A stretch of 64,000 nucleotides of DNA from Urechis unicinctus. Its lineage: Eukaryota > Annelida > Polychaeta > Xenopneusta > Urechidae. Positions 280 to 62,815 of the stretch are shown here, one piece after another. The stretch spans positions 37,825,646 to 37,889,645 of the forward strand of contig CM067354.1 of NCBI GenBank assembly GCA_034190875.2, in the 5' to 3' direction. The position numbers and the translations under genes are program-made. The notes below the pieces were generated by a model. The model had not been told where the DNA came from and did no database searches. It saw only the letters and a list, made by a program, of their open reading frames with translations. Position 1 is the stretch's first letter, and each line of letters begins with the position of its first letter.

Positions 280-3150
280 TTGGATGAGGAATTCACTTTG
301 GTTTTACGGAGCTTCGGGGAGAGGGAAGCTGCCATCGGGCCGCGCAGTTCCACTAACATCACGGTGCTCGCCAACGACGATCCTTATGGATTCTTACAGT
401 TCCCACAAGCGAATTTCACAGCTACTATTGGTAAAGTATATGATGTCTGACTTAATGCAACGCCCTTTGTAACAGATATTGTTATCACACCATGTGTTTA
501 TAAATTAGTATATTATAGCGTATGCCAGTTATTTCATAGAGAATTATTTACTGATGTCATGAAACAACTGTTTTTATTTCATAACCATATGACATACTTC
601 GTTGTGCTTGATTACTATTTTGTTGACATCAACAGACGAAAGCAAAGGTGCAAACATATTCATGGCAAGGTTACCAGTACAGAGATCTAAAGGACGTTTT
701 GATTCATCATCAGTAGCTTGGGTCATACCTGATAATTCAGATCTCTATCCCACTTCTGGTGAACTGCGCTTTGACCCCGGCGTCGGGGAAGTGGTGTTAG
801 AGGTGCAGTCAGTCCCGGATGAGGTATGTATTTGAATTACGACTACTGTCCGCTATGAGATGTCTTTCACCTAGCAATCGGTTCGCGACGGTCATATTGT
901 TAATCTCCGTATAATGTCTTATCAATCGTCTGGACAGTTACCAGAAGGTGAAGAAACGTTCACAGTGACCTTGACAGAGGTTACAGGTGACGCAAAACTT
1001 GGTGCAAACGTCACAGCAAGTATCATTATCAGAAAGAATGATGACGCAATCTACTTCAAAGGTGACAAATGAATCTCCATAGCCGTGATTTATTCACATC
1101 TTGTCCATGTGACTAAATGAATATGTAATCTTACTCTGGCGTAACCTTCCCAGAGCCGTCTTTGATCTACGCCGTCGAACCGAGCACATTGACCTTGACC
1201 GTGGTGAGGGACGGGCCCACTGACGTCATCGCCACTGTCCGCTATAAGACAATGGATGATGTAGCAACAGAAGGTAAACGTTGGTCCCCTTCTCCGATGC
1301 ACCAGTCAATACAGAGGCTACTCACTGACTCAATCGTGATGTTTAATGATAGGACATGGTTGATCTTAGTCCTGCGCAGACGTATCATTTCATTCGCCCT
1401 CTAGGGCTAGGTTCATCTGATCGATGGAGTGAATGCTGAAAAAACGTATTCGCTATTTGTCGTGAGCAGGTGGCCGGGACTATGTCGTCATAACGGAGTC
1501 GCAAATTCTGTTCGACCTCGGTGAAGCGGAGAAGACAGTTGACGTGAGGGTACTGGATGACGTCAGCGCTGAGCCGGACGAGTCGTTCTATGTCGTGCTC
1601 TACGAGCCAGAAGGTGGGGGTGTTGGATAAGGATGGTCGGGGTGCCTATTCTCAGACGTCTTGAGTAAAGGAGCGTTCATTATTTATCTGCTAGTGTGGG
1701 TCGGGGAAATCCGAATCCTCTTTGTGGAGAGGGTCATGCAGTAGGGAGAAGGGCCAAAGTACGTTATTAAAGCATGTACGCAAACTTTTTGTAACTAACA
1801 CCAGCAAAAGAACAGAAAACCAAAATGAAATATTCGGCGGGAGGGTGAGACGCTTCTAGACGCTTTTTCGGAAGGGTTGGGTTGGAGTGAGAGGTCAACG
1901 AAAATCCGATCCCTCAAACTCCAAGTAATCCAGTCTCCCACGGCAGATAAATGATAAACGTTTCGTTATTCATTCCCCTGGTTTCATGTATGTTATAAAC
2001 AACAATCATTACGACGGGGTAGGGGGGGATTAACATAAGTATATTTGTTGGGTTGACCTCGTAAGTGGTTGATTGCAGTTTCTCATCGTATAACATGTCG
2101 CTATTCACAGGTGACGTGGTCGTGTATGGTACGCCGAATGCCACTATAATCATTATTGCTAACGACGACGCAAACGGGGTGTTCAGCTTCGCCCCGCCCA
2201 TGATGCTACAAACCCAGGAAGGAAATGCTGTCCAGTTTGAGTAAGCACTGACAAATCCGAGCCTCATTCGCCAGAATTCTGATAAACATTGTTCGCTTGT
2301 GACAGTGCTGACCCTGTGGTAGTGTATTTACTCTTACTTGTCATCAGGGTCAGAAGATCGATCGGTAAATACTACGACGCCTTCGTGTTTTACGAGATCT
2401 TGGATCTTTCGACCAGACAGCTCGTTCCGAACAATACAGACTTTGTCAGCAACGTCGGCTCGGTCCACTTCAAAGATCTGCAGGAGCTGGGTTACCTGAG
2501 CGTCGTAGCTGCAGAAGATGGGCTGCCTGAGTTCAACGAGTCCTTCTTGCTACGCCTACAGCATGTAACAGGTAGTCAACTCGGCGTACAATAGCGTCAG
2601 CCCGGAGTCCTCGATTTTAGCTATTCAAATGATACAAGTGGTTAGTAATTGATGCTGTATGTAGGATAAACCCCCACTCTTAGTCTTACATATATTCCAT
2701 TTACGTGCGACTAACGTTCGCTTCCACGAGTTTGCCATTTTATTGCATGTGAGTAAAACCTCTTTCCTTGGCACCATTGGTGAGGCGACACCACAGAAGA
2801 TAAATGCTACGCATATCACACATGCTAGAGATTTTGCTTATTTTCAGAGCGTAATTGTGGGTGTGTCTTTGTTATGTATCGCCAACATTGCATTATGAAG
2901 TAGGCATGGGACATATATTGGTTTCGATGCTTCAGTGACCAAGTCCTACCTCCTCCCGGGGCGGATCAGTGCCTCTGATCGGGAGGTCCAGTTGGAGGTA
3001 GAGGCTAGTGATGACCCTCATGGCGTGTTCCTCTTCCCTGTGTCCTCCTCGGAGGTGGTTATAGCGGAGGACGCGCTTGTGGGGGAGGAAGATCTGACGA
3101 GAGTCACTCTACCTGTAAAGAGGGACCGCGGCAACTCCACCCTGGTTCAG
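280..3150 (+). CDS. ADGRV1: ADGRV1 exons 1-8 of window: Calx-beta repeats before the LamG domain
   Basis: Exons 280-430, 636-823, 938-1061, 1154-1273, 1470-1613, 2111-2240, 2348-2571 and 2936-3150. Phases chain without a break (for example ATT G + AC at 430/636). Calx-beta signatures are visible: [30 protein letters not shown] and [12 protein letters not shown] at the acidic calcium-binding turn, and [20 protein letters not shown] and [10 protein letters not shown] at the domain borders. These extracellular beta-sandwich repeats form the stalk of the receptor. The exon upstream of 280 is outside the window or in its first 279 bases unseen; I found no acceptable exon there. Confidence 0.9.
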
Positions 3151-5802
3151 GTAGGCACCAATCAGCAATGGTTGGTACTAGCAACAGCCGTATATAGCGG
3201 CCTAATATAACAAGCACATACAACAGCCTTATACTGCGGCCTAATATAGCAACTACATACAGCAGCCCTATACTGCGCCCTTATATAACAACTACATACA
3301 ACAGCCCTATACTGCGGCCTAATATAGCAACTACATACAACAGCCCTATACTGCGGCCTTATATAACAACTACATACAACAGCCTTATACTGCGGCCTAA
3401 TATAGCAACAACTACATACAACATACTGCCCTTATATAACAACCACATACAACAGCCCTATACTGCGGCCTATATAATACAACTACATACAGCAGCCTTA
3501 TACTGCGGCCTTATATAACAACCACATACAACAGCCTTATACTGCGGCCTTAACAGCCTTATACTGCGGCCTTATATAACAACTACATACAACAGCCCTA
3601 TACTGCGGCCTTATATAACAACTACATACAGCAGCCTTATACTGCGGCCTTATATAACAACCACATACAACAGCCTTATACTGCGGCCTTATATAACAAC
3701 TACATACAACAGCCTTATACTGCGGCCTTATATAACAACTACATACAACAGCCTTATACTGCGGCCTTATATAACAACCACATACAACAGCCCCTATACT
3801 GCGGCCTTATATATACACAACCACATACAACAGCCCTATACTGCGGCCTTATATAACAACTACATACAACAGCCTTATACTGCGGCCTTATATAACAACT
3901 TCATACAGCAGCCTTATACTGCGGCCTTATATAACAACTACATACAACAGCCTTATACTGCGGCCTTATATAACAGCTGCCTTGTAAGGAACCAGTTTGC
4001 CCATCTATGACATTAGTCACTGATGTGATCATTGATGTGGTGTATGTTTCCTTCACCAGGTGGCGTGGGAGGCCTTCTCCTACCAGATAGCGGGGGCCGG
4101 AAGTCTACCTCAGCTCATAGACCTCTTGTTCGTCGCCGACGTGCCACAGGAGGTTGCCGAGTCGCCTACAATTAGACGCCCTGGTACGGGCACCAAAGTG
4201 CTCCTCTTCACTGGATGTGATGGTGAGTGGAGCACCAGCACGGTCAACTTCTCCCTCATCATATACCTTTCTGTCATGATATGCCTCTGATTCCATATAC
4301 CCTCCTGTCGTGATATGCCTCTGATTCCATATACCCTCCTGTCATGATATGCCTCTGATTCCATATACCCTTCTGTCATGATGTGCCTCTGATTCCATAT
4401 ACCCTTCTGTCATGATATGCCTCTGATTCCATATACCCTCCTGTCATGATATGCCTCTGATTCCATATACCCTTCTGCAATGATATGCCTCTGATTCCAT
4501 ATACCCTTCTGTCATGATATGCCTCTGATTCCATATACCCTCCTGTCATGATATGCCCCTGATTCCATATACCCTCAAGTCATGATATGCCTCTGATTCC
4601 ATATACCCTTTTGTCATGAAATGCCTACTACTTCTTATTCCTTTAGTTATGACGTGACCCCTCCATATATGCCTTACCTAATGTTATCTCATCATCTCCA
4701 CCACGAGTCCCCCGTCATGATATACCCTCACCCTCCTTCATAATATACCATCCGTCATGATATACCATCCGTCATGATATTCCATCCGTCGTGATATACC
4801 ATCCGCGATGACAAACTCTCCGTCATGATATTCCCTCGTCATATGATATGCCTTCGTCATGATATGCCTTCGTCATGATATTCGCATGTCATGATATTCC
4901 CTTGTCATGATATACCCTCGTCATGATATTCCTTCGTCATGACTCTAGAGCTGGACACGTTGATGCTATAATTTGTCCTACACATGCGTCTACAAGATAC
5001 GGTAACCCCACAGTAGCTGTATATTTGCCCCTATGACCACGGCCCCTGCTGCAGGATGTCTGCTGAGTGTGGACGCTATGTACCAGCCCAGTCCGGCCGT
5101 CATCACCAGCGGCTTCAGCATTGCCGTGTGGATCCAGCCCCGGCCCAATTCAGCCGGCTACATCATGGCCAAGTCCAGCCCCGACCTCACCAAAGTCTAC
5201 TACGGGCTGCGTGTGGCGCTTGTCAACAGCCAAGCCTTCAGCAGCGTCAGTCTGGAGCTCACCTACACCGTGAATAGCGCGACGGTAAGTCTGAAACTCA
5301 CCTACGTAGTGAATAGCGCGGCGGTAAGTCTGAAACTCACCTACGCAGTGAATAGCGCGGCGGTAAGTCTGGAACTCACCTACACCTTGAATAGCGCGGC
5401 GGTAAGTCTGGAACTCACCTACACCTTGAATAGCGCAACGGTATCTGTCTGAAACTCACCTACACGGTGAATAGCGCGGCGGTAAGTCTGGAACTCACCT
5501 ACACGGTGAATAGCGCGGCGGTAAGTCTGGAACTCACCTACGTAGTGAATAGCGCGGAGGTATGATATAGAGATGCTTCCCTTACGCTGGCAACGAACAC
5601 CACATTGACGGTAATGATGATAACGACGATAGTTATTATAATACTGACAAATTTTATTAACAACGTTCATGGCAATTATATGAAGCTGCGGTATATTGTG
5701 TCGATCGCTGCTGGGATGACGTTGATGATGACGCTAAAGATGACGATCAAGTTGACAGTGACCATGATAAAGATGCAGACGATAGTGTTGATGATAATTA
5801 GA

Positions 5803-5874
<72 letters not shown>

Positions 5875-8800: not shown

Positions 8801-11800
8801 GTTTACTCCCCCCTTGATCATTGTGATGGATCTGAGAGAGTTACACTCTATTCTCCTCCCTTGATCATTGCGATGGATCTGAGAGTGACCCTGTCTACTC
8901 TACCCTTGATCACTGTGATGGATCTGAGAGAGAAGTACGCTGTCTATTCTTTCCTAGATCATTGTGATGGATCTGAGAGAGTGACACTGTCTTCTCCTCC
9001 CTTGATCATTGTGATGCATCTGAGAGAGTGACACTGTCTACTCCTCCCTTGATACTGTGGTGGATCTGAGAGAGTGACCCTGTCTATTATGCTCCCTTGA
9101 TCACTGTGATACATGAGAGATCTGAGTCACTGTCTCAATACTGTGATATGATCTGAGAGAGTGACACTGTCTATTCTTTCCTAGATCATTGTGACGGATC
9201 GATGACATTGTTTTTCCTTAGATTAGAGTGATGAATTATAGAGTGACACTGTAATCCATCATTATACGTGTGGAATTACTGAGAGAGGGACAAATTGTCA
9301 TTTCTACAACGTTTGCGCGATTCATCTGTGAGAGTGCGATCAACACACCCAATCTGTATCGAGTAGAGTGACATGCTCCCTTGATCAACAAAATAGATCT
9401 GAGTAATCTCAATGCACCTGAGCGGCATATAGATTAGAGGGGGGGCCACGGGGCTGCATCCATCATTAACGTGCTTAACGCTTACCAATCATAGAGCCTG
9501 CTCAGTAAGGCTCCTGCACCGGGTCCTAACATGTAACATCTCCAAAATGGTATAATTGTCGATATGCAATGTTGACAACATGGTTCAGTTTATGATCAGC
9601 AGCATGTATCTATCCCTAACTCAGTTATTGCTATGCGACATATACACCAATTTACTAGCTGTAGATATCCGACACAGCCAATTATGACTCAATCACGACC
9701 CAGTTGGAGGTATATGACATTTGCTAGCCGTGGCTTTCTTGTGGATATTCAGTATTTGCAATCATGGTCTTGTTCTATACATCCTAGTAGAAAAGTATGA
9801 CACGACTGCGGACACAAAACTTCCACAACAACTGTGTAAGGACCGTGGTCATCTTTGATGGACGTGTTGGTCAGGTTCATTAGATCAATGCGTGATGGCC
9901 CAGTTGGGACTTTTCAATATTTATCTACTGTGGTTTTGTCTTGTTAGTAAAATATGACGTTGTTTGACGTTCAGTCCTTTTGTCGAGCATGTTATTCATC
10001 ATCGTCTATTATCGACTTACTCTCCCCTAATAATCCTCTGCGTCAAGCAATGTTTTTATTCAGAAAACCACTTATAAGAATGATTGTATACAGATCGTTT
10101 GCAACCACTGTATATTTGGCAGATCGAGGAAAGTTGCGAATGCAAACCAAAGTGTTGCCTATATGTGTTTGGCTTGCCGGAGCATAACAAGCCGCTCAGA
10201 AAGTGCTTCATCACTCAGAAAGGACGATTTCTCACAGCCATCTACGTCTCTATATCCTCACCCATTCCACACCAATCTGTTTGCGTTTCGTAATGAACAG
10301 ATGCTCACCAGAGCGGCTCTCTGCAGCGGAAGGTTTTTCTTGGCGGTGCTGTTTGAAGGAGAGCGCTGCTGTCGAGGGGAAGCATCATTGTTTAATGCTT
10401 GTTGACGGGGAACATCATTGTTTAATTAAAGGGTTACGGTAGCAATTATCGCGCATTGTATTGTTACGGGGCGTTCATCCAATCAAAGCTTGCCATGTAA
10501 AGAGCGCCCTCTGCATGTCTGCCACGATGGAATATTAACTGGCGAATGCGTGTGTGGTCGGCTGAGCGCATGGCCTCGATTAGCGGCACAAAACACACAG
10601 CTATTTGTTGTTGCGCTGGTTTTCATTGGAGGACGGCTGTACCTTAAATCCTCGTGCGCCCAAAACATGAATCTGAACATTATATGATTCGAGCAGAATT
10701 GATCGAGTTCAATTCCCGCTATCCTCTCTCAGCTGAGAGGTTGCGCCATCTGGAGAGTGTATCGATTGTAATTTGAAGCTACCACTGTCGGGACAAATGG
10801 CATGTGTGAGTCTGTCAGATCGTCTTTCCTGGCCCCTGTGCCATGAAACATGAATTAATTTCGTGTTGTACTCAACTCGTCAGCAGCTCGCGACGGTAGA
10901 CGCGGTCACGTTTCGCCGACGTGATTAACTATCAACTCTCAATTAGTACAGGCCAAATGAGCATCGGGTTGCCATGGAGCCAGTGTACACGTGGTATGAC
11001 AATAGCAGTTGTAGAGTGTACATGAAACAGAGGGGTTGGAAAAAAACAAACTTTTTTTCTTCAAATAAAAGTGTATTTAAGCAAGAAAACTGGTAATGGT
11101 AACGTGTTAGTCAAGAAAAGTGTTTCGACTGACAGGCCGATACGCAGTATACGGCAAAGTAATGAAGGTACCAGCTCACAGTACTATCTCCACAGTACAT
11201 CTACAATCATCCAGCGAATAGGAACTCTACAGAAAGCACTTCTGTTGGGATACGCAGAAGAATTTGGGTACTTTTCAAACATTATACGGGGACGTTAAGC
11301 AATGTTTTATGTGATGCCTACAAATCAGTATTTGGCAGAATAAGAGAGGTTACGTGGCGTCGGCCTCATGCAACAATTATTACAACTGAACGTGCACGAA
11401 GAGCATGTTAAATAGCTCTTCAAATTCAGTTAATGATCAACCTCACACATCAAAGATAATCGGCACATTCCGTTCGTTTTTGGCAACTAAGCTTACTGAG
11501 TTTCATTATGATGAAGTAATTGCGAACATCGTAAGCAGCCGTACGTACACCGCCTCCAGCGCTGGTCACTCGACTCAAACATGCACGACGCGATGAGTTG
11601 AGGATGACGTCATCGCTCCCGGTGCCGAGCACGCTAGAGAAGCTCCATTTCGCAGATGAAGTTATGGTCGTCGGAACACATGGCATCGTGCCAGTGGTAG
11701 TCGGCAGGTCTATAGAGCATCATGCAATGCATGGAAGAGCGGGAGTCCGGCTGGTTGGGGGCCCAGCGAGTGTACTGCATGGGACGCAGATGATGCTTGC

Positions 11801-14800
11801 TTGTCCACATCCACTTCCGGCTGCGCACGATGTAGTTTCCGCTCGTCCACCAGCCCTTAGGATGCTGGTATACTGCAAAGAGACAAGAAAGATTGAGAGG
11901 GAAACTCAACGGAATTCAGTCATTAAACTACTTCCGTGCATTTGACGAAGTTTATTCGCGTTTCAAAATCTGATTAATCAAAGTAGTGTTTGGAGCACTT
12001 GTTGGGCGTTAGTAGGGTGTATGAACAAGGAATAGCGAGTTATAGCAGGGGAAAAAACATACATCGTGCAGAGAAAGTCATTTAGGACCGAGAAAAATAT
12101 GTTGAGAAGAGAGAAGAGTATTTATACATCATTGATTCTGGCCCTCTTTGATTGCGCTATCAGTAGGTCGGACAGCCGGAAGTGGGCAGGCATCAAGCCG
12201 ACTCATTCACGCCGTACATGCGCGCGTCCCCCGTACCAACCTGTGTGGTAGACGCCCTGACGACATTAAAACGTCCGTTGTTACCGTGAAGCTGAATGTT
12301 TTTTTCCTCATCCACCAGGTACGATGCCGCTTTTATTACTGCTTCGTGTGGCCCAATGTGCCATGCTCCCAGGCTCCCGGGACAACCCACCAACTCACTA
12401 ACCACTCTCCCGAACATTCCACCCACTTACTTCCCATATTTCATATCTATCAGTTCCCCAGGCACACAGCAGAGATAAAGGAAACACTTGCGGATGATTA
12501 TGTGGGGATACCATTAATAACATGTACATCAACCGAATGATACGTTCAACACTGAAACCCTTACTCTGGTCGCAGAAAAATGTTGTCAGATTTTGTATCA
12601 ACAGCGCGAGAATTTGACGCCTTCCCTCCTGGGGCGGGGATGTAGCTAACCGGGGGAATTGCCGTATCCAGCTGTGTGGTGGCCGCTTATTTGGTGGTTA
12701 GTGTGGGGTGAGGGGACGTGGGTGAGTGGGGGGCAGAATTCCTGGATATTCATTGATATCATCACTATACGTTTTAGTCATTATTTTTCGCCTTGACTAG
12801 CGCTTGTGCACAGCCAATTCAATATTCAATGTTTGAACAATGGTAACTCTATATTAATTCACGTCTTAAGATAAGGGATACCAGTGAATGATTTGGCCGA
12901 AAAGACAACCACACACGCTGTGCTATAAAATGCCAGCTTCTAGCTGGAGTCCGGCCTAGTACAGAGCATATGTCTACTTCCGCACAACTCAACCGAAGTT
13001 GATCGAAAGATCAGTGAGTGCCAGCTTTTGATACTTCACGCATGCGCCTCATTCGAACTAGCAAACAGGAAGTTCAGAAAATAGTGGCGGGTATTAAATG
13101 AAGACTGACAGAACGCACGTAGGGGTCGCTCCTTGGTACCTGAGCGGTCCGCGCTGCGTTGTGCATCCATCAACGACGCGCGGCAGACTCACTGACTTCA
13201 TGAGGAACGGCTTCCCATCAATCTCAATAACGCATCGTGCAACATCACTCTGCTTACATACACCTTACAAATTGCCTTTCGGGTTTTCTGTCAAAACTCA
13301 TTTTTGTAAACGCCTCTATTTCAGAAACCACGAACATTTCGCCGTGAAATACAGACACCCTTAAGCTTCTGGGTCTTCCCATTTGTCATTCTGACATCCT
13401 TTGTAAACAAACAATATTGATTACTAATGTGAAAGAGAAGAAACTGATAAAAGGGAGGCATATCCTTGCTCCATGAAGAGCGAATCCGCTATTAACATTT
13501 ATGGGTATACGGAAATTTCACATTTACGAGGATATGTGGCAATTTGAACAATATGATATATGGTAGGGTTGTGAGTGTCAGAACTACGGAATTTAAAAAA
13601 AGCACTTTCTTAAAGACTTATCATGCCTTGGAACAACTTGCCAAGTGGTTGCTTATTAAACAATATAACGGGTGCATTCTATCCTTATTAGCATCTGATT
13701 GGGTAGCTTGGTGCTAGTAACTTAGCGTGATATGAACATCCCATTGGATTCAGCTGTATGAAGACTAGTGTGACTGGTAAGCTGTCCACCGTGTCTACTC
13801 ATGACCAGTCAGTCCTGGGTGGGGATCTTTGTTAAAGCCTTGGCAGATCACCCTAACAAATCTTTCGCATAATCTGAGCTATACTGCCTACTACAAGACG
13901 TGATGAAACCCCCTCCCCCTCTGCACCCCTATAAAGCCCGCTCGGTAGCTGCTACGCGATTGCTGAACGGTGTTACAAAACGTATGTCTCATAAATACTG
14001 AGGCTGTTCTTTAATAAAAAGCCTCAGGAGAGGCGGTCGCTGTGGCTTCACCATGCCACCGGACCTGTTTTTTCACTGCTGATATTGACACGACATCGCG
14101 TACGGTGATCCCTTTGAATCTGTCGCGAGCTGATCCCATGAACTAGCCCTGCCACCGACCTAATGACAAGTCACACTTTCCGTACCTACCCCTGTTTCCT
14201 TAACACAACCAAATAGATGCATGAACTGGGAATAAAAGGCGGACTCTGAGTAGCTCTAGTCGGCCAATCCATGGGAATGACACCCGCCCTACGCATCTTC
14301 TCCCTCCATTCCATCCCTTCAGAGACCGGGCTATGAAAGATCAAAGAGGAGACGGGGGAATGGTGTGACTGATTCACGGAGGGAACGGGCCTCAAGGAGT
14401 CATTTCATACATCTCTCTCTTTAAAAGCGATGGCGTCACAGGCGGGGTAGTGGTGGTGCTGGTAGTTAAGATGGGGGTAGTGAGGTTATTGTTGCTGATG
14501 ATGCAGTCAAATATGATGCGGCTGGTATAAGCGTTGATGGTGATGATGGTATGTTCAGTTGTGATTTTACTGGGTAAAATACAGTCCGTGATGATACAAC
14601 TAGTGATGATGATGCTAGTTGATGCTAGTTATGATGAAGATAGTGATGATGAAACTTGTGACAACGATGCTAGTTATACAATGAGTGATGATGATGCTAG
14701 TTATGGTTTAGCTAGTGATGAATACACTTGTTATGATGTAATTGTGGATGATGATGCTAGTTATGATGTTACTAGTAATGATGATGCTAGTTATGATATA

Positions 14801-21830: not shown

Positions 21831-21892
<62 letters not shown>

Positions 21893-42800: not shown

Positions 42801-45800
42801 GTTGAATAGCTATTCATTACTCAACCTGAATAGACAGAGGAATATAAAAGCTCTGTATGTTTTGTTAAGATTGGCAAGCATGGTGATCCAAATGGAATAG
42901 TAAGGTTTGACACAGAGGCACAGCTACCTAAGACAGTTGAGGAACCAGTGGTTGGTATGAGGACCATGAGGTTTCCTCTTTACCGGAGGGAGGGCACCAA
43001 CGGTACACTCACGGTAGGTCACAGTAACAGCAAAGCTTTAATAAAACAAAGTTTCATTGTCCACTGCACCATGCTCATACGGTGGTGTTTGACAAGGAGC
43101 AATCCAATTCTCTATACTCTTTAAATAGAGTGGCATGTCTTGTAGCTTTCTTGATTGTATTACCCACCAATCTATTCCTCTTGTGTGTCTCAAGGTGTAT
43201 TGGTCAGTGGTTGGACCACTTGACCAGCCACCAGATGTCACCCCTGCCTCAGGTCAGGCTGTGATTGCTGCTAATAGCCGCAGTGGCCAGGTAATCTTTG
43301 ACCTCCTGTCAGATGACGTTCCTGAACTTAACGAAAAGTTCACAGTGGTGTTGACTCAGGTAGAGGGAGGAGCCGAGATTGACACTCAGTTCAATACCTC
43401 AGTGTTCACAGTGCAGTAAGTACATATGTTGTATTTTTATGGTTATATTTTATATCTGCAGTTTAAAATTACCCAGAACGCATATGTCAATTGTGCCCAA
43501 GGATAACTCTCAGATGACTTTTTATAATGATCAATATTTAGGAAGGAATTCCATCACCATGACCTCACTTCCATCACCATGACCTCACTGTGTATGTTAC
43601 AGATATAATGACAACCCCCATGGTAGGTTTGCTATCCACTCCGACTACCAGACGGTTGTAGTACAACCCACCACACTCAACAGACAGCTTCTCCTCAACA
43701 TCTCCAGAGACGACGGGGCCTTTGGCAGAGTCAGAATCAACTTCGCCACTTCTTATGATGAGGTCACTTGATGTCTACTACTCATTGTGTTCTTCAGCAT
43801 TATATTAATGTTAATTTACAAATTTCTGTAAATATGTTCCCTATGGTATTATAAAACCGTTCTACAGCACAGGTCATTGAATATGATAGAGTGATTGATA
43901 TCTTTGTGTTTTCTTCTTTGATGTTTGTTGGATATTGTTTGGTCCTGTGATCTACTTTCATTTCATTACCAAACTACTGACTAAGTGTTTCATACAGGGA
44001 GACATCAAAGCATCTAATATTATCAGCAATCATTATTCCCATGATTTGGATTTGATTATGATTTTCATCATTGGTGGTGTGATTTGACTATGATTTTCAT
44101 CATTGGTGGTGTGATTTGACTATGATTTTCATCATTGGTGGTGTGATTTGACTATGATTTTCATCATTGGTGGTGTGATTTGACTATGATTTTCATCATT
44201 GGTGGTGTGATTTGACTATGATTTTCATCATTGGTGGTGTGATTTGACTATGATTTTCATCATTGGTGGTGTGATTTGACTATGATTTTCATCATTGGTG
44301 GTGTGATTTGACTATGATTTTCATCTTTGGTGGTGTGATTTGCTTGTGGGCTGATGCTGTAGCCGTCACGCGAGCTCTACGACCGGTGGTGGAGTAGCCA
44401 TTTCAGATGGGACAAGTACCAATACGTCCACGTAATGCTTGGCTAGTCACTACCAATCTCTATAAGTTGCTTCATTTATCTCTTAACTTCTTTTGATTTC
44501 TTCATTATATTGCTACTGGTTAGTCATATGCACGAGTCAACTCATCAGTGGCTTCATTGATCTCTTTAAGTTTTCTTGATGCATTCTTACTCAAGATAAC
44601 CTGGATGTATGGTGCCCTCTTCGTGATAACCTAGCTGTATGGTGCCCTCCCACATGATAACCTGGCTGTATAGTGCCCTCCCACATGATAACCTGGCTGT
44701 ATGGTGCCCTCCCCCATGATAACCTGTTTGTATGGTGCCCTCCCCCATGATAACCTGGCTGTATGGTGCCCCCCCCCCTGATAACCTGGCTGTATAGTGC
44801 CCTCCCCCATGATAACCTGGCTGTATAGTGCCCTCCCCCATGATAACCTGGCTGATGCCACCCCCCACATGAGCACCTTTATAGTATGGCGCCCTCCCTT
44901 GATGTTAATTTGTTGTACTACAGGCCCAGCCAGGCATGTCCTACGTACCTCACTCAGGCTCGGTGCTGTTTGAAGATGGCCAATCTGAAGCTCTCATCTA
45001 TGTGGACATTGAGAGCCCGGTTTTTCTGGCTATTGACTCGACCTTTTCAGTCAGCCTGACAGAGATACGCTACATTGGGGTGGGAGGTGTGTGTCATCTT
45101 GAACCATACTTATTATAAATTATCACTAACAATAAAACTGCAATTACCAGCATTTTTTTCCAAAGTATATCATTAACCATAGATTGTGGAATTTGATATT
45201 CTATGTTATGTTGTACCTGTTTCGTACAAATGTTTAGAGAGATTTTACCTGCCCTATGTCTGTGCCTTTCAGTGACAATACCTCCCCAACTTGACTCTGA
45301 ACACTCCCAGGCCAAGGTCACAGTGCCTGCTGAGGCTGCCAACAGTGAGGTCGGCTTCGAGGCCACTGTTTTGGCTGTGGGTGATGGTAGGTGTCTAGTT
45401 CTGACAGGCTGTCAATGTCCGTGTGGCTGATAACCAATTGAATGACTTACAACATAAAAGAAATAGATTTGCAGTTGCATATCTAATGTGTGTGATGTGG
45501 ATAGGCAATGGTGAGGTAGAAGTGACAATGAAGCGATGGGGTACATATGGTATTGTGGATATAGACTGGCAAGGCAGTGTTCCGTTAGTTAATCTGCCCC
45601 GATGGCTTCAACACAGGGGCTGTTGTGCCAGACACAGGGACCATACGCATGGTACAGGCACAGGAAACAGAGAAGAGATCTCCGTACAGGTACGTATTCT
45701 ATCAAGGTACACTGTGCATCAGGTGATGTTGATTTCAGCTTGCTATCTTACAGAGAATACTTCTGTTACATGTACAATGAACAACATCATACTATCGTGA

Positions 45801-48800: not shown

Positions 48801-51800
48801 GGAGGTTTGCCAATGTGACCATGTTAGCCAGCGATTATCCTAATGGACGCCTACAGTTCGCAGCTGAAGCCAGGTCAATACTACACACTGTAGATATTGA
48901 TTCATGAATAATTAATTGATTCATTGATTTATTAATACATACGATAAGGAGTAATTTTTATATCCAATTCTACAAGTTTGATGCATTGTAATATAGTCTA
49001 GCACTCAGCTCCAGGGAAAACTCCTAGCCACTGCTTGGCACTTTATCCTGTACTTTGTGCTGTGCCAGGCTGGTGTACGTCGACGAGTCGTCCACACGAG
49101 TAAGCCTGCAGGTGGAGAGGCTAGGTTATCTAGACAAGCGTGTATTGGTGGAGTACACTACCACGCAGCTTGACACCCCCGAGACAGTGGCTGGTGTCAA
49201 GATCTACCCAGCCCTGGAGGGGGCTGATTACATGGGGGCAGGCGGGCAACTTGAGTTCCCTCCTGGGGTGGTGTGTATATATCTTAAAAAGATGGCTCCC
49301 TGTCGTGCTCATTGATAGGGTCAATAAATGCTGACTCGCATCGTATTAACTTGCGTGTTTGTCGTCGTGCAGGCTGTGAGGGTGATTGATATCAGTATGG
49401 ATCCCTTCACCGCATCGGACAACCCGTTCCCTAAAGCCTTCTATGTCCATCTCAACCTGCCCTCCTCTAATGCCGAGTAAGTCCATCATCGTCTTCTGAT
49501 ATTGTACCACACAAGGAATGCTGCTGATGAGACAGTACATTGACTATCATGAAGATGTCTGAGGATGCTTGAATTAAAAGATTTAAGGGGTATTCCCATA
49601 TATTGTTGTTGTTCTATCAATATGCAGACTTGGAGAAGCTGATGCCATGGTGACCATTGTAGATGACCAGGATATAGATGTGTGGGCCGCATGGCCGCTG
49701 ATACAAGGATCAATGAACAATGAGTCCATACACAGGTGAGTATCTGTGATTACTGCCTTCCACATGCCATGTATCACGATGAGAAACCTCTTGTATTGTT
49801 TGTTGTTGCCGTTGACAGTACATTTGACACGTTGAAGAGAGCCATCCCGGGTTACATGAGCCATGATCAGCTGACTGTGACGGAGACCATTTTGACGAGG
49901 GTACTGCAGCAGGCAAGGACTACACCGTGAGTCGAACATGGTCACACATAAGCTCTTATGTCTGTTGTGATGCAAAAACAGGTGTATTTGGCCGGAGGTG
50001 CTGTAGTCAACTTTGATACAGTTAAACAGCGTGTTATTTTGGCTGAACATGTTGTTAGCTATCGGTTCCCCCACGGTACTTCTCTGACCTACTTATGACT
50101 TCACTAACCACCTTCTCCAGATTAAATGCTGCTGCCAGTGCTGGTATACTGAGTGTCTTCTGTCGCCTGCTGGACGCTGAGCATGCTGAGGATGCCGTCA
50201 GGGGGCGCTGGGAGCTGTCCCGTCAGGTGGAGGAGTATGCTTATAGCCTGGTGCAGCACAGAGACTGTGTGGACAGGTGAGGTTGGTGAACTGCATAAAT
50301 GTCTTGACATGTGAGGCTCATTAATAATTGGTGTCACTACAGGTGAGGCTTGTTAACAATAGGTGTCAGGACAGGTAAAACTTGTTATAAATAGTTTATG
50401 TATGAGTAAGATCGAGATTATGTAAGGCATGTAAGAACATGTAAACAATACTTATCTGGTCATATGAAATCAAGATGAATAGACATTTGTTTCACTTAAA
50501 TTATCATGAATCAAATGATATTTGGAAAAAATCATGCAAATGGAAAACTTTGCTGACCATATTTTTCCCTATGATTTAAGTCCGCATTATTTCACTTCTG
50601 GAGAGTGCCCCCTCCTCCACATTGAGGTTGTTAAAGACTACCCTGAAGGTGTGAATGGCTACCAGTACAGCACCAGGTAGGTACTCTCTGTCATACTGCT
50701 ATAGGTGGGTGATACCATGAGGGGTTTAGTGGGGTGGATACCATGGATATTGACATGGAACTTGATTGCATTGCATCAGACGCTATATGTAACTCATCAA
50801 CGTGGTGTTTGTATAACAGTCAGGATGACAACCTGCGCCTGCCGTCCAACATTATGCGAGTCCAGGAACATGGACGTGACTCAAGCAACCCCAGGGTATG
50901 TCACCACGCAAATATCTGATCTAGGACAATTGAATTTCTGCTCATAGAAGCCGTATTACAAAAACCATATTTAATGTAACTATCTCTCTGTTTTCTATGT
51001 ACTTGGTAGACACAGATGTTGTTTTCATATTGATGATGATGGTCCCTATTTTTTTAAGTGTAAGTTAATGCATCATAACGTAACAGTGTTACAGCCTGGC
51101 CATCATAGAGTACAGCAGTGATCATTGGTTCACAAGACAAGACACAAAGCTACTGAACAATAAGGTCTCTTCACCTCACGTCTCCTTGCGCTAATCCACC
51201 AATTATTCCTAATATTTGCTTAGCCTAAAGACTTGTGCATGTGATTATAGGTGCCTTGATTACAGGTGTTGTGTATGTGATTACAGGTACTGTCATCAAG
51301 CCTCCAGGATCAAGAAGCTCGTTTCCTTGATGAACCTGTCAGGTTCCGCATCTACACCCCTGACAAGAATCTGGCTGCTAGAAGAGCGAGGTGATTTTCT
51401 GAAACTCATCGACTGAATTACGCTGTTCTTAACCCAGACTATAACATGACAAGTTGTCTCGTGATTTTGCTAATTGCTTGATCTTCAGTTGCCAGTACTT
51501 CAGTGAGGACCTGGAACTCTGGACGACGGGGAATGACGTCTGCAGTGTAGTGAATAACCTGGCCCTGGCGTTGGACACGCATGTGGACTGTGCCTGTAAA
51601 CACATGAGCCTCTACACGGTGGTGTCTGACGTGGCCAGACCGGATCTTATTGGTTACCCTCTCTGGTTCCACATTGCCTGCTTCATCTGTATCGTAAGTC
51701 ATATCGTAGTGGTCTGGCAACAGATTGAGGTCATTGGATGGTGTCACATCCTGTGATCATGTTAACAACCGCATTAATTACCTGTATGTCGATCATCTTA

Positions 51801-54604
51801 CTGTGTTTGTGTGTGGTTGTGTGTAGGCGGGGTTAGCTCTGATGACCTGTGTTTGTGTGTGGCTGTGTATAGGCGGGGTTAGTTCTGATGACCTGTGTTT
51901 GTGTGTGGTTGTGTGTAGGCGGGGTTAGTTCTGATGACCTGTGTTTGTGTGTGGTTGTGTGTAGGCGGGGTTAGCTCTAGCCATCATCGCTCACCATATT
52001 TGTCTCATGTACTCGGCTATGTTCTCTGCTAATCTCCTCATGCACCTCTGCTTCGCCATCCTAGCCACGCAGGTGTGTACTCAACCGTTATCACTTATGA
52101 AACAATGCCAAGCTTTAAAAAAGGCAAATTTTTGTTCTATCAACTGCTGGATATATCACCTATCAGTATGCAGTGTGATTTTACATACCTGTGTGTTACC
52201 TGTCAGGTGTGCTACGTGATTGATGCCTTCCTGAGTCCTACTCACATCCTGGCTAGTACACTTGATGAGAACAATTACAGGTGTATTGTTATGTCTCTCT
52301 TTCCTTCATTACTTCTTCTTGGCCCAGTTCACCTGGATGATGACACAGGTAAACATCATTTACCTGATATTAAGGTGGTTGATCGAAATAAATCCACTCA
52401 AAATGAATTTCATAAATCTAAATCTGGAATTTTTATTTGTTTTTACAGGCAATCAATTTTTATAAAACATTAGTACTGAACGACGAGCACACAGAGAGGA
52501 AGTATGTGTTGTATTTCTTCATTGGATGGGGTGAGTTTTGTTTCTGTGTGGCAGCCTCCTAATTGAGTATCATACTGCTGTGTAGCAGCTGTTGTTGTAC
52601 ACCACGTGAATGTTTGACAGGGTTGCCCATCTGCATCCTGGCTGTGTTCTACATCGCCACGTACGTCATCTACCGCTACACAACTGACCTGCCTGCTGAT
52701 CACATCTACGGCGACGTCACCGGCAACCTTGACGTGTGCGTGTCTCCACAATTACAATTTTTTTTTTCTCATTGTGTTTGTTTATTGAAGTAATATGATA
52801 TACCAATACAAGAAATTTGCAGTGGATTATGCTTCCCTCTAATATATGGGAGACTACTGCTTCCGGGAGGCCAGGACAAGCAGTGAGCAGGATTAGTACA
52901 TGGTACTCTGACATTGGCCATATGATTCATGGGCTGCAGGTGTGTATTTCAGGTGTTTCCTGACACATCCGTATGCTGGTCTGGCAGGTGTGGTGTTACC
53001 TGTATTGGTCTGCCTCATGGTGGTGGCTGTTGTCTTTATACAGGCCTTCCAGGTCACCCCTCAATGGCAGGCTTATGATGACGTGTACAAGGGCAGGTAC
53101 AACATTAATGGTGAGCTCCAAGCAGCCAGCCAATGGCATTCCTCGTGGAAATTAGTTTTATGACTATGCATTAATCATAATCTAGTGGTGAGTTTTCTCT
53201 TTGTATGATTGTACAGATAGGACAAATGCATGCTTACCTGTGATGTTAATGAAACATATGTATGTTTAACTGTGATGTTAATGAGTCTATCTTTGTGTAC
53301 GTGTGATGTTAATCAACCTGTGTTTACATCTGATATTTAACAAGTCTACCTGTATTTACCTGTAATGTTAAATGTTTACCTGTGTTTACCTGTGACTTTT
53401 AATGAGTCTATCTGAATGTGGCTATAGAGGTGCGTCTGATGCTGTTCTTCTGGGCTCTGCTCGTTATGACCTGGCTCTGGGGAGGACTACACATGGTTTA
53501 CAGTCAGCTCTGGATGCTTATTCTCTTCTGCATATTCAACGTCATAATGGTGTGTTAATGCTGTCATAACGTATCATAATTTACCCTGTTAATGTTATCA
53601 TAACGTCAAACTTTTCAACGTTGGTCCTTCTCACAATGTTTCACCGATATTGTTCAGACACACATTTAATACCTCCAGCACTTCTTGGGGTGCAACTTCA
53701 ATCTTAACCCAACAAATCCTGTTGCACCTGGATGCTCGTACAGTCCTTCACTGTTTTTGTTTCAGGGGCTGTATGCGTTTGTTGTGTATGGTGCTCTGAG
53801 GAACCCTTGTTTCCCTTGCTTCCGCCCTCAAAAAGCTGCCTACTCTATCAACGCCACGATGAGTGAGGGGTCTGTACAAGTCCACTACCCCCACCCTCAC
53901 CCGCGACCTCCTTCCTCATCCACTGGTAGTAAGGACTCGCAAGCATCTGAGGTGAGATCAGCTTGTATGGATGCTCCATTGGTTAAGTTATTAAGTATGG
54001 TGTTACAGTCTTGTGTATATTATGCCTGCCTTTGCAAATGGACGATTTCATCACCTTGGCGATACATTATTATCTTCTTCATGATTCTTTTCACCACCTC
54101 GGGGATATCTTCAATATGATTCACTTCATCACCATCATCTATTCGTGATTGAATATTCATGATAATTTTCCATTCAAATTAGCTAAATGTCTATTGCTGT
54201 AATCATATTCACAACAGGGAGGTGTTGTGAATCTAAATGTTAACAGTTTTCGCAAGTATGCAGTTATGATACAATTCCGCATTATTCACCCAAATTGTGT
54301 ACAGCACTGGGAGAGGGATTCAATCTCGCGGCAGAGTTTGCTTCATGTGAAGCGTACTATGGGTCCTAGTGGCGTGTACACCATTCCTCACCCGTCCATC
54401 CCACCCTCACATCCCACCGACGACTCACGAGACTTTGATGACCTCATCTACGCATTGAAGTCCAACAGGGGGTATGACTCCAGTGACATCAGCCACCCTA
54501 TTGATCATGAGATTGACGAGGTTCATATTCATGGCATCCCTCCCTCTGCTTCTAATGGCACATATGAACGGAAACGTATACCCATCGCAGACACGCATTT
54601 ATAA
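280..54604 (+). CDS. ADGRV1: Adhesion G-protein-coupled receptor V1 orthologue (5'-partial, about 92 exons)
   Basis: Very large cell-surface receptor. In vertebrates it forms ankle links of hair-cell stereocilia and periciliary fibres of photoreceptors, and binds the Usher-2 scaffold proteins through its C-terminal PDZ ligand. Exons were chained by hand by checking AG/GT borders and codon phase across each intron. The order of domains is Calx-beta, LamG, Calx-beta, Cys-rich insert, Calx-beta, EAR repeats, Calx-beta, GAIN/GPS, 7TM and a DTHL tail, which is the human order. I count about 33 Calx-beta units by their acidic DDxxPE-type turn (human has about 35). The signal peptide and several Calx-beta repeats must lie upstream of the window, since the first exon starts mid-domain in phase 0. 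Four exons show one-base frame breaks, probably assembly errors. The family is certain; individual exon ends are well supported but unconfirmed by transcripts. Confidence 0.96.
3190..3975. repeat. Minisatellite, about 39-bp unit, about 20 copies
   Basis: Unit core is CTACATACAACAGCCTTATA then CTGCGGCCTTATATAACAA. It lies in the intron after exon 8. Copies are 85-100% alike, with a few partial units. Confidence 0.95.
4060..6276 (+). CDS. ADGRV1: ADGRV1 exons 9-12: laminin-G / pentraxin-like domain
   Basis: Exons 4060-4222, 5055-5284, 5878-6002 and 6148-6276. The segment contains [29 protein letters not shown] with FYVDG, and ends [12 protein letters not shown]. This is the concanavalin/LamG pattern that human ADGRV1 carries inside its Calx-beta array. 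Two oddities affect its introns. The 3' end of exon 10 (5246-5284) is the founder of a minisatellite that copies the splice donor. The acceptor of exon 11 is preceded directly by 24 ATG triplets instead of a pyrimidine tract. Splice phases are 1, 0, 2 and 2, and all join cleanly. Confidence 0.9.
4262..4640. repeat. Minisatellite, 34-bp unit, about 11 copies
   Basis: Unit core is TGTCATGATATGCCTCTGAT then TCCATATACCCTCC. Intronic, after exon 9. Confidence 0.95.
4735..4945. repeat. Degenerate short tandem repeat, about 16-bp unit
   Basis: Repeated GTCATGATATACCCTC variants, clearly derived from the left part of the neighbouring 34-bp unit. Confidence 0.85.
5246..5559 (+). repeat. 39-bp minisatellite spanning the exon 10 donor
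   Basis: The last 39 bases of exon 10 (5246-5284) are followed by seven copies at 5285, 5324, 5363, 5402, 5441, 5482 and 5521. Each copy except the fifth (GTATCT) begins with GTAAGT. See findings. Confidence 0.95.
5803..5874. repeat. (ATG)24 microsatellite touching a splice acceptor
   Basis: Seventy-two bases of pure ATG directly before CAG at 5875-5877, the acceptor of ADGRV1 exon 11. Confidence 0.97.
6639..8413 (+). CDS. ADGRV1: ADGRV1 exons 13-16: Calx-beta repeats after LamG
   Basis: Exons 6639-6853, 7096-7334, 7532-7792 and 8276-8413. The motifs are [13 protein letters not shown], then [35 protein letters not shown] and [17 protein letters not shown]. Exon 14 carries two extra cysteines, in SSPCTTS and FTCPITR. 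Exon 16 ends in phase 0 at ADYQ. Its Calx-beta partner strand ([11 protein letters not shown]) resumes only at 22084, so this one domain is split by the 13.7 kb intron that houses the lectin gene. Confidence 0.9.
7355..7389. repeat. Perfect 14-bp inverted repeat with 7-base loop
   Basis: GACCATATAACCAC at 7355-7368 faces GTGGTTATATGGTC at 7376-7389, just inside the intron after exon 14. A direct partial copy follows to about 7435. Confidence 0.85.
8560..9200. repeat. Minisatellite, about 47-bp unit, about 13 copies
   Basis: Unit contains GATGGATCTGAGAGAGTGAC then ACTGTCTACTCCTCCCTTGA. Copies become more diverged towards the right end. Confidence 0.92.
11634..18026 (-). CDS. Secreted C-type lectin nested in the ADGRV1 intron (2 exons)
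   Basis: Exon 1 is 18026-17423 and exon 2 is 11872-11634. The join is AATCCAG/GTGAGT to CTTTGCAG/TATACC, phase 1, giving 280 residues ending MELL. Residues 1-18 form a signal peptide ([18 protein letters not shown]). Next comes a short region with three Cys ([14 protein letters not shown]) and a helical stretch at about residues 90-140 that could trimerise. The lectin domain follows from CPPEF: six cysteines (CPPEF, SSCYRF, EYCSAF, MHCMM, AMCSD, FICEM), a WTSGN in place of WIGG, APNQPD and HWHDAMC. QPD at the sugar site usually means galactose-type preference. WHD replaces the usual WND, so calcium binding may be altered. The ligand is unknown. The start was chosen at the first ATG before the signal peptide; an upstream in-frame TTG is not used. 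Confidence 0.88.
14580..14870. repeat. GAT-rich tandem repeat
   Basis: Repeats of GATGATGATGCTAGTTATGA with 30-36-bp spacing, preceded by simple GAT/GGT-rich DNA from about 14440. The long open frame here is a by-product. Confidence 0.85.
14935..15580. repeat. Minisatellite, 48-bp unit, about 13 copies
   Basis: Unit core is AGTATCAGTGTATAAGCCAA then TGGGTGAGTTTGTGTTAAA. It is open on both strands because 48 is a multiple of three. Confidence 0.95.
15955..16034 (-). CDS. Candidate alternative last exon of the nested lectin
   Basis: A phase-1 acceptor (TACTTCAG at 16040-16035) joined to lectin exon 1 would add about 25 residues, [20 protein letters not shown] and onward, ending at TAG, with a basic end. 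The result would be a truncated lectin lacking the sugar site. The open frame extends upstream to 16173, so it could instead be part of another exon or chance. The pyrimidine tract is poor. Low confidence. Confidence 0.25.
19524..19551. repeat. Homopolymer C(28)
   Basis: Uninterrupted run of 28 C in the giant intron; its exact length is likely unreliable. Confidence 0.95.
20630..20870. repeat. 18-bp tandem repeat, about 13 copies
   Basis: Unit ATGTAGCTGATCATGGTT with small changes. It is flanked on the left (20340-20630) by more diverged relatives. Confidence 0.92.
21832..21891. repeat. (ATC)20 microsatellite
   Basis: Pure ATC triplets in the giant intron, about 200 bp before ADGRV1 exon 17. 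Confidence 0.95.
22084..26516 (+). CDS. ADGRV1: ADGRV1 exons 17-26: Calx-beta repeats
   Basis: Exons 22084-22365, 22614-22817, 23207-23330, 23514-23807, 24166-24338, 24875-25133, 25218-25349, 25599-25717, 25955-26136 and 26339-26516. Motifs include [79 protein letters not shown] and [10 protein letters not shown]. The donor at 25349 (GTCTGT) is weak but the only one giving a clean phase. Exon 25 has no Met and is open only in the spliced frame. Exon 26 opens with [12 protein letters not shown] and leads into the Cys-rich insert. Confidence 0.9.
22810..23025 (+). repeat. Diverged tandem repeat including the exon 18 donor
   Basis: About four units, each with a CACAG/GT(G/A/T)-type donor followed by ACAATACCTGATTAATCAAC. 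Donor-like sites lie at 22818 (real), 22874, 22916 and 22973. Confidence 0.75.
23815..24065. repeat. Minisatellite, 32-bp unit, about 8 copies
   Basis: Unit core TCAATGATGGGTGGAGATAA then CTGTCACGTCAC. It begins within 10 bases of the exon 20 donor but does not include exon sequence. Confidence 0.93.
24560..24900 (+). repeat. 57-bp minisatellite spanning the exon 22 acceptor
   Basis: Six copies with TATGTCAG/GTGA(C/A)...TTGGG at 24591, 24648, 24705, 24762, 24819 and the true exon start 24875. See findings. Confidence 0.95.
26530..26975. repeat. Minisatellite, 27-bp unit, about 15 copies
   Basis: Unit TATAATGACTCACCCACATA then AGGCTGT. It lies in the intron before the Cys-rich exon. Confidence 0.95.
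27244..27393 (+). CDS. ADGRV1: ADGRV1 exon 27: cysteine-rich insert inside a Calx-beta unit
   Basis: Phase-0 exon coding 50 residues with four cysteines: [15 protein letters not shown], then VDCNWFT. The same type of insert (CATLCLKEKACSAF ... CFWM, from memory) interrupts the Calx-beta array at the corresponding point of human ADGRV1. The spacing CxxxCxxxxxC resembles a PAN/Apple-like loop, but the segment is too short to call a full PAN domain. Conservation between this animal and human suggests a structural or ligand role. Confidence 0.85.
27514..33581 (+). CDS. ADGRV1: ADGRV1 exons 28-39: Calx-beta repeats up to the EAR block
   Basis: Exons 27514-27889, 28002-28127, 30390-30575, 30694-30839, 30930-31209, 31416-31673, 31797-31881, 32167-32311, 32425-32566, 32682-32935, 33072-33256 and 33422-33581. 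Motifs include [104 protein letters not shown] and [10 protein letters not shown]. The largest intron here (28128-30389) is filled by a long 32-bp minisatellite and a hairpin. Confidence 0.9.
28702..28766 (+). ncRNA. Pre-miRNA-like hairpin in an ADGRV1 intron (candidate)
   Basis: Arms 28702-28729 and 28739-28766 pair over all 28 positions as plus-strand RNA, with two G-U wobbles and a 9-base loop. It may be a structured RNA or the remnant of a small inverted-repeat element. There is no evidence of expression. Confidence 0.35.
28850..30190. repeat. Long minisatellite, about 32-bp unit, about 42 copies
   Basis: Unit core TCTGTTATTTACTCCTTGAG then CCATCATCTCCC, with 31-32-bp periods and higher-order duplications (29335-29470 resembles 29490-29640). 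It fills most of the intron between exons 29 and 30. Confidence 0.95.
33757..36072 (+). CDS. ADGRV1: ADGRV1 exons 40-44: EAR/EPTP repeat block (beta-propeller)
   Basis: Exons 33757-33951, 34352-34495, 34708-34988, 35321-35586 and 35829-36072. The repeated pattern is a hydrophobic strand such as [31 protein letters not shown] or VHLVISN, followed by W-containing strands: [24 protein letters not shown] and SIYIWDTS. This is the epilepsy-associated repeat also found in LGI proteins, expected to fold as a propeller that binds extracellular partners. About six blades are visible. The block sits between Calx-beta units exactly as in the human receptor. Confidence 0.9.
34090..34245 (+). repeat. 43-bp tandem repeat resembling the exon 40 donor
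   Basis: Three to four units containing CTACCTGACCAGGTA. The end of exon 40 with its donor reads CTACCTGTCCAGGTA. Confidence 0.75.
36303..43762 (+). CDS. ADGRV1: ADGRV1 exons 45-62: Calx-beta repeats after the EAR block
   Basis: Exons 36303-36507, 36638-36796, 37014-37161, 37315-37486, 37741-37894, 38385-38561, 38790-39146, 39733-39900, 39997-40382, 40470-40658, 40841-41094, 41218-41357, 41513-41758, 42100-42275, 42494-42772, 42870-43013, 43195-43415 and 43603-43762. Signatures include [35 protein letters not shown] (identical in human from memory), [34 protein letters not shown] and [10 protein letters not shown]. Two introns use the GTTAGT donor (42276, 42773). Exon 53 (39997-40382) has a one-base frame break near 40162. 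Confidence 0.9.
36788..36965 (+). repeat. 34-bp diverged repeat including the exon 46 donor
   Basis: GCACTGTGAGTACTGGGC recurs 34 bases later (donors at 36797 and 36831). More decayed units with TATATCAATGGTACA follow. Confidence 0.8.
37900..38160. repeat. Degenerate short repeat
   Basis: Irregular TAATCACTAATTAACAACAC-like units with weak periodicity in the intron after exon 49. Confidence 0.5.
41860..42035. repeat. 17-18-bp tandem repeat
   Basis: TTGACATGAAGCTTTGA repeated about nine times with drift, just before exon 58. Confidence 0.85.
44036..44340. repeat. Minisatellite, 32-bp unit, about 9 copies
   Basis: Near-identical units GATTTTCATCATTGGTGGTG then TGATTTGACTAT, implying recent expansion. 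Confidence 0.96.
44590..44880. repeat. Minisatellite, 31-bp unit, about 9 copies
   Basis: Unit CCTGGCTGTATGGTGCCCTC then CCCCATGATAA, ending about 45 bases before the exon 63 acceptor. Confidence 0.95.
44924..49735 (+). CDS. ADGRV1: ADGRV1 exons 63-77: membrane-proximal Calx-beta repeats
   Basis: Exons 44924-45086, 45273-45386, 45505-45689, 45927-46118, 46384-46545, 46682-46769, 47139-47285, 47440-47630, 47743-47883, 48139-48294, 48447-48599, 48716-48873, 49069-49270, 49373-49476 and 49628-49735. Motifs include [54 protein letters not shown] and [13 protein letters not shown], plus a conserved cysteine pair in [14 protein letters not shown]. Exon 65 seems to contain two compensating one-base errors. 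The last exon drifts from Calx-beta into the GAIN region ([11 protein letters not shown]). Confidence 0.88.
49819..51639 (+). CDS. ADGRV1: ADGRV1 exons 78-84: GAIN domain with GPS autoproteolysis site
   Basis: Exons 49819-49926, 50121-50276, 50581-50676, 50820-50895, 51095-51164, 51287-51390 and 51489-51693 (the last runs into helix 1). The helical subdomain A ([33 protein letters not shown]) is followed by beta strands. The GPS has a cysteine at ASCQYF, then DVCSVV, and the terminal [12 protein letters not shown]. Cleavage would fall in HM/S, the same triplet as in human ADGRV1, leaving the Stachel-like start SLYTVV. The exon ending at 50895 does not join the next one in frame as written (see findings). 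Confidence 0.88.
51640..53830 (+). CDS. ADGRV1: ADGRV1 exons 84-91: seven-transmembrane region
   Basis: Exons 51489-51693 (end), 51965-52072, 52207-52348, 52449-52530, 52621-52735, 52953-53110, 53428-53549 and 53766-53951. Helix 1 is [13 protein letters not shown] plus [12 protein letters not shown]; helix 2 is [14 protein letters not shown]; helix 3 is [14 protein letters not shown]. The second intracellular loop [12 protein letters not shown] matches human MNDEHTERRY. Helix 4 is [16 protein letters not shown], helix 5 [17 protein letters not shown], then [13 protein letters not shown], as in human. Helices 6 and 7 are [17 protein letters not shown] and [10 protein letters not shown] with [11 protein letters not shown]. 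Between helices 2 and 3 the frame slips by one base near 52300. In mammals this receptor can signal through G-alpha-i after cleavage. Confidence 0.93.
51801..51978 (+). repeat. 46-bp tandem repeat multiplying the helix-1/2 exon acceptor
   Basis: Four copies of GTGT(A)TAG/GCGGGGTTAG at 51827, 51873, 51919 and 51965. The last is the true acceptor. See findings. Confidence 0.95.
53230..53425. repeat. Diverged 40-bp-scale repeat
   Basis: Units containing TACCTGTGATGTTAATGA with strong drift, in the intron before exon 90. Confidence 0.6.
53831..54604 (+). CDS. ADGRV1: ADGRV1 cytoplasmic tail with Usher PDZ ligand DTHL
   Basis: The tail runs from exon 91 (to 53951) into the last exon 54305-54604. 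It contains the conserved acidic patch [12 protein letters not shown] (human QEFDDLIFALKT) and ends [10 protein letters not shown], then TAA. Human ends [10 protein letters not shown] (memory). DTHL is a class I PDZ ligand used to bind harmonin, whirlin and PDZD7. The unchanged last nine residues imply that the Usher-scaffold link predates vertebrates. Confidence 0.95.

Positions 54605-56141: not shown

Positions 56142-62815
<6,674 letters not shown>

Follow-up and report, generated by a model that had tools for sequence, protein, structure and literature searches.

What places tandem repeats over so many exon-intron borders of a single gene: an affinity of duplication for exon ends, a role in splicing, or the ordinary turnover of minisatellites? 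The question was raised by an ADGRV1-like gene of the annelid Urechis unicinctus, contained in a stretch of 64,000 nucleotides that was analysed as a whole (hereafter the window; assembly GCA_034190875.2, contig CM067354.1, positions 37,825,646 to 37,889,645 of the forward strand).

Gene model and support for its borders

The ADGRV1-like gene occupied positions 280 to 54604 of the plus strand and displayed 92 predicted exons and 91 introns (median intron length 197 bp; 182 predicted junctions), with a stop codon at 54602–54604, while its 5′ end probably lay outside the window. The exon chain was modelled from coding statistics together with splice-site matrices learned from the window and was then curated by eye, so that every junction was a prediction from sequence and no border was derived from RNA. 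The automatic model contained 119 exons, 27 of which were dropped, and the ends of 13 exons were shifted by eye, giving the final 92. The dropped exons were (i) 22 between 8,475 and 21,668, in a large intron holding an antisense lectin gene, and (ii) those at 3557, 5434, 22946, and 24591, located within or beside arrays, plus one at 52870. Sites placed by the automatic model within six arrays (3182, 5249, 22811, 24562, 26531, and 36788) were overridden in curation.

Curated exons 1 to 85 formed a single stop-free frame of 5,045 residues. The carried frame broke after exon 86 (52207–52348), presumably located between transmembrane segments, and this break would represent either a frameshift or polymorphism, pseudogenisation, or a model or assembly error. 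Exon 66 (45505–45689) was open; judged by eye, its middle resembled Calx-beta better in a different frame, as though a pair of indels offset each other. Pfam identified Calx-beta, LamG_3, and EPTP domains on the tested pieces, a domain set that agrees with the predicted identity as ADGRV1, and we take the last residues of the predicted product to match the human ADGRV1 protein. A PDB search with the LamG region returned weak LamG matches only (7 sequences, best E 0.005).

That the exon borders were wrong, the arrays being ordinary coding repeats or wholly intronic sequence, was regarded as highly improbable. This reading draws on the predicted nature of the borders, on the automatic model having read some arrays as exons, on an open alternative at donor 34988 (see below), and on the six of eleven copied junctions (see below) that had no domain running through them: Pfam gave no domain across 34988, 50276, 51287, or 51965, and its matches at 22817 and 33951 ended or began two residues off the junction. 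An EPTP domain was also tried with Pfam as support for the 34988 border and was not found. Against it stood the stop-free frame over 85 curated exons and the Pfam domains continuous over the remaining five copied junctions, 5284/5878 (LamG_3) and 24338/24875, 36796/37014, 37894/38385, and 38561/38790 (Calx-beta).

The antisense gene in the 13.7-kb intron was a C-type lectin gene (11580–18030, minus strand; Lectin_C 1.9e-16 with two joined exons), and its presumed intron contained two minisatellites (14600–15528). A long coiled-coil gene (56164–62815, minus strand), which we assume to be Girdin/Daple (CCDC88)-like, had three exons whose Pfam matches were either weak and below the cut-offs or lacking. 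Another array (28846–30188; 42 copies of 32 bp, pyrimidine-rich on the sense strand) filled more than half of a 2.3-kb intron. Scans of the window for Rfam families (gathering cut-offs) and for tRNAs were empty, and the CpG observed/expected ratio was 0.57, a value not diagnostic of cephalochordate origin.

Junction copies and decoy splice sites

For each of the 182 junctions, the surrounding 40 bases were aligned to the adjoining 160 intron-side bases. A score of at least 13 was reached by 14 junctions, compared with 0.4% in a set of 3,000 local base shuffles, or about 0.7 junctions expected; 5878, 42100, and 53549 were removed because the matched part excluded the junction. The remaining 11 of 182 were copied into neighbouring intron DNA, far in excess of shuffled sequence: seven donors (5284, 22817, 33951, 34988, 36796, 37894, and 50276; that at 33951 as a displaced copy only) and four acceptors (24875, 38790, 51287, and 51965). 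Six of them (5284, 24875, 34988, 36796, 37894, and 51965) were crossed by arrays under default Tandem Repeats Finder (TRF) settings, and low-scoring crossings at 37486, 39900, and 47139 under loose settings were left uncounted since their junction alignments scored below 13. A preliminary description of this DNA had listed at least eight junctions whose border was covered by the repeat unit; alignment recovered all eight and added three that had been missed, but at 33951 the copy was not tandem at the border and 38790 proved a marginal single duplication. Nor was the phenomenon limited to the ADGRV1-like gene, as had been stated: the neighbouring coiled-coil gene carried a two-copy duplication of 40 bp (59339–59426, minus strand) over its predicted acceptor 59358.

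Self-similarity scores of at least 16 were found at 0.1% of positions in exon interiors, 4.4% of junctions (8 of 182), and 29.9% of 2,505 positions in intron interiors (largest intron excluded), a gradient expected if exons are under purifying selection. Junction units measured 15–57 bp by TRF and 42–58 bp at 22817, the array at 5249 being also reported with a 119-bp unit; among the eleven junctions, the only TRF units divisible by 3 were 39, 57, 24, and 15.

Three of the donor arrays reported by default TRF, the first two of them clear, contained (i) at 5284, eight copies of a 39-bp unit (5249–5563) with seven repeat-phased decoy donors, in frame from +39 to +156 and frameshifted from +197 to +275; (ii) at 36796, 5.4 copies of a 32-bp unit (36788–36958); and (iii) at 37894, a 25-bp unit (37892–37961) extending to about 38154 under looser settings. 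The array at 34988 (34972–35040; 26-bp unit, 2.7 copies, default TRF) had, like that at 37894, been missed in the preliminary description, and its border was less sure because an in-frame alternative donor 15 bases upstream stayed open. Donor 50276 was covered by four degenerate but clear copies of a 32-bp unit (50272–50394); default TRF reported this array from 50306, and the crossing appeared only with looser settings. Donor 22817 was covered by four degenerate copies of 42–58 bp (22811–23014), each with a donor-like aGGT, which were clear both in the junction alignment (score 25) and when aligned to one another but crossed the junction in no TRF setting, the copies differing by insertions and deletions. 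The exon end of 33951 (–13 to +4) recurred within an intronic array of 43-bp units (34088–34238) starting 136 bp downstream. By eye, the 16-mer CAACTTCTACCTGTCC recurred close to the end of each of two adjacent exons (33500–33951), in different frames, with a variant in the 34088 array.

On the acceptor side two arrays were clear: that at 24875 (24562–24891; 57-bp unit, 5.8 copies, default TRF) displayed five decoy acceptors equal in score to the true site, each frameshifted with a stop, and that at 51965 (51801–51978; 46-bp unit, default TRF) had 3.9 copies with 95% matches. Acceptor 51287 (51235–51296), the third junction missed earlier, was covered under loose TRF only, by short, degenerate repeats that included three TAGGT/CAGGT sites. 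The duplication at 38790 (38757–38810; two copies, period about 35 bp, score 13) had a 19-base core that started two bases into the exon and was 17/19 identical as counted by eye, the acceptor AG falling outside this clean core.

Comparison of donor-side flanks among the seven donors, as a probe for a shared origin of the units, gave scores of 15 for 22817/37894, 12 for 22817/33951, and 11 for 34988/50276 (99th percentile of background, 10); the other pairs scored at most 8. By eye, the intron sides of 22817 and 37894 shared a CAGGTRA...TTAATTAAC flavour.

Candidate sites were scored with matrices from the other junctions and counted as decoys when they reached at least the 5th percentile of true sites; 52 were listed at the eleven junctions, and many array copies scored as high as the true site. 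The rows of competing splice sites described earlier were thus borne out by matrix scores as rows of donor-like or acceptor-like sites at several donors and acceptors. The further suggestion that they might drive variable exon ends fared worse as a general function, since 45 of the 52 decoys introduced a stop codon once the two exons were joined, as did 31 of 36 hand-picked as repeat-phased. Of the seven decoys that stayed open and in frame, four belonged to 5284; the others were single sites, one lying 15 bases upstream of 34988, one at 36796, and one 6 bases into the exon at 38790.

Functional arrays, in which competing sites would give regulated and graded exon ends, were accordingly judged very unlikely. 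Their best case was 5284, where 39 bp equal 13 codons, five decoy donors outscored the true donor, the four in-frame copies from +39 to +156 stayed open, and LamG_3 kept 60.0 bits with one extra copy. The same domain scored 65.0 bits with donor 5284 itself and 59.7 with two extra copies, so that extra copies reduced the score, and the stop counts and the scarcity of units that are multiples of 3 also told against function; published mirages, moreover, are said to leave regular splicing undisturbed (PMC3087553, PMC3902484). At 36796, Calx-beta likewise scored 31.9 bits across the junction and 25.0 bits, C-terminal part only, with the copy at +120. Together with the stop counts, these drops in predicted domain score favour splicing at the exon-proximal copy and weigh against variable exon ends as a general function. 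Domain matches do not settle the copy used at 50276, 51287, 51965, 34988, 22817, and 33951, where we infer the exon-proximal choice.

Array positions and random seeding

The preliminary description had proposed exon ends as preferred seeds of duplication. Such a preference, which might stem from breakage or slippage where AGGT proto-splice sites lie, would put junction arrays in excess. The test set comprised 23 merged default-TRF arrays with a period of at least 10 outside the largest intron (overlapping rows merged by hand), none of which was wholly exonic. Under the null applied, a unit of the observed length could be seeded at any position of the gene; each array was collapsed to a single unit, and wholly exonic seeds were removed. 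Six of the 23 arrays crossed a junction against 5.0 expected (P = 0.38; 4.0 expected and P = 0.20 uncollapsed), and adding the six arrays of the 13.7-kb intron gave 6 of 29 against 4.0 (P = 0.21). Across five TRF settings, crossings numbered 6, 11, 10, 10, and 6 against 6.3, 8.4, 8.0, 7.6, and 6.8 expected, these expectations being raised by taking the unit of the 5249 array as 119 bp (39 in the 23-array test); crossings exceeded expectation in all but two settings, none significantly (P = 0.18–0.73). The proposed preference was therefore not upheld by the counts, nor by position, junctions being self-similar much more rarely than the interiors of introns (4.4% against 29.9%).

Preferred seeding was considered unlikely, though less so than a splicing function. 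Two comparisons that appear to favour it were rejected or set aside. A null placing arrays strictly inside introns predicted 0.24 overlaps among 29 against 6 seen (P = 8e-8), but it was rejected because it excludes by construction the very crossing event being counted, whereas the fair null gave no significant excess. An extended set of degenerate arrays gave 11 of 26 crossings against 5.7 expected (P = 0.014) and was set aside as biased, because only junctions had been combed and intron interiors had not been combed alike. Some lean towards donors was present among wholly intronic arrays (largest intron included), 6 of 23 of which started within 40 bp of a donor against 3.0 expected (P = 0.059); there was no such lean of array ends towards acceptors, with 2 of 23 within 40 bp against 3.0 expected. 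The arrays at 23816 and 26531 did begin close to a donor, as noted earlier, at distances of 8 and 14 bases, but 2 of 23 starts within 15 bases lay within chance (1.2 expected, P = 0.33). In this one gene the power to detect a twofold odds bias is 42%, and under a fourfold bias a count of at most six crossings would have P = 0.011; a fourfold junction bias is hence unlikely, and a twofold one stays compatible with the counts. A combined reading, in which a modest bias of up to about threefold acted at junctions and the in-frame donor row of exon 10 was used, giving LamG variants with differing numbers of a 13-residue insert, was deemed rather less probable than preferred seeding by itself.

Amphioxus mirages and the origin of the arrays

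Splice-junction minisatellites had been thought to form no described class, but one was already in print: the amphioxus "mirages", tandem repeats spanning exon-intron boundaries, are reported from Adh3, globins BflGb6/BflGb9, troponin C, and PGBD5 (PMC3087553, PMC3902484). The founding report on Adh3 (NAR 2002), and cases in retinol dehydrogenase and presenilin, are given here through the papers citing them. According to PMC3087553, the globin mirages affect 5′ and 3′ boundaries alike and are unstable in length; many of their copies carry splice signals, and splicing is apparently regular. PMC3902484 describes imperfect copies in the PGBD5 mirage and cites that of troponin C. Reported units are 10–72 bp in Adh3 and 150–160 bp in the globins (PMC3087553, PMC3902484). 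The arrays of the ADGRV1-like gene shared all four structural features compared: the repeat spans the exon-intron boundary (33951 failing and 38790 being marginal), donor and acceptor sides are both affected (seven and four, respectively), the unit length of 15–58 bp lies within the reported range, and AG/GT splice signals are kept in many, not all, copies. This likeness is drawn from one sequence with predicted junctions, and the present case differed from those in amphioxus in that a single very long gene carried 11 such junctions among its 182, many with degenerate copies.

Two further systems resembled these arrays in part. Human genes in segmental duplications are described as having variable internal tandem repeats where exons meet introns (PMC2812944); their units are minisatellite-sized and lie at the borders, as here, and can alter splicing. 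The human cases, as presented in that source, come from recent paralogues and are backed by transcripts, and roughly half of the repeats are coding, whereas none of the 23 arrays here was wholly exonic. In potato RdRp, a tandem duplication across an intron-exon border duplicated the splice signals, as do the present arrays, and gave a new intron (PMC4974935); no sign of a new intron was seen here, and most arrays had more than two copies.

The potato case and the proposal of mirages as a source of new introns (PMC3087553) would favour a reading of the arrays as marks of introns that arose by tandem duplication, as in the AGGT duplication model. The donor and acceptor flanks within one intron were, however, not more similar than flanks taken from different introns: among the 91 introns, one reached a score of 12 or more against 0.56 expected, with no excess pointing to a common origin of the two ends. 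Intron birth was accordingly held to be as improbable as wrong exon borders.

The best explanation, to which we assign a probability of about 80%, is that these mirage-type minisatellites are by-products of tandem duplication, tolerated in a gene dense in introns and rich in minisatellites, with the exon-proximal copy spliced and the intronic copies serving as decoys. A tandem duplication of roughly 15–58 bp would arise whose first unit happens to straddle a splice junction, and the straddling unit would later spread on the intron side through the usual turnover of minisatellites, while wholly exonic duplications would be purged by selection. Splicing would most likely keep to the exon-proximal copy, leaving the intronic decoys mostly harmless or lightly costly. 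Junction arrays are common here because 182 junctions, short introns, and many minisatellites occur together and exonic duplications are removed; their number in one gene is notable, and junction count and repeat load explain it.

Since the fair null already predicts many crossing arrays in short-intron genes, their presence alone is no argument for a special mechanism. With about a dozen junction duplications, this locus would offer a good natural setting in which to study how the spliceosome passes over strong decoys close by, and it may likewise serve to gauge how often junction duplications could seed new introns.
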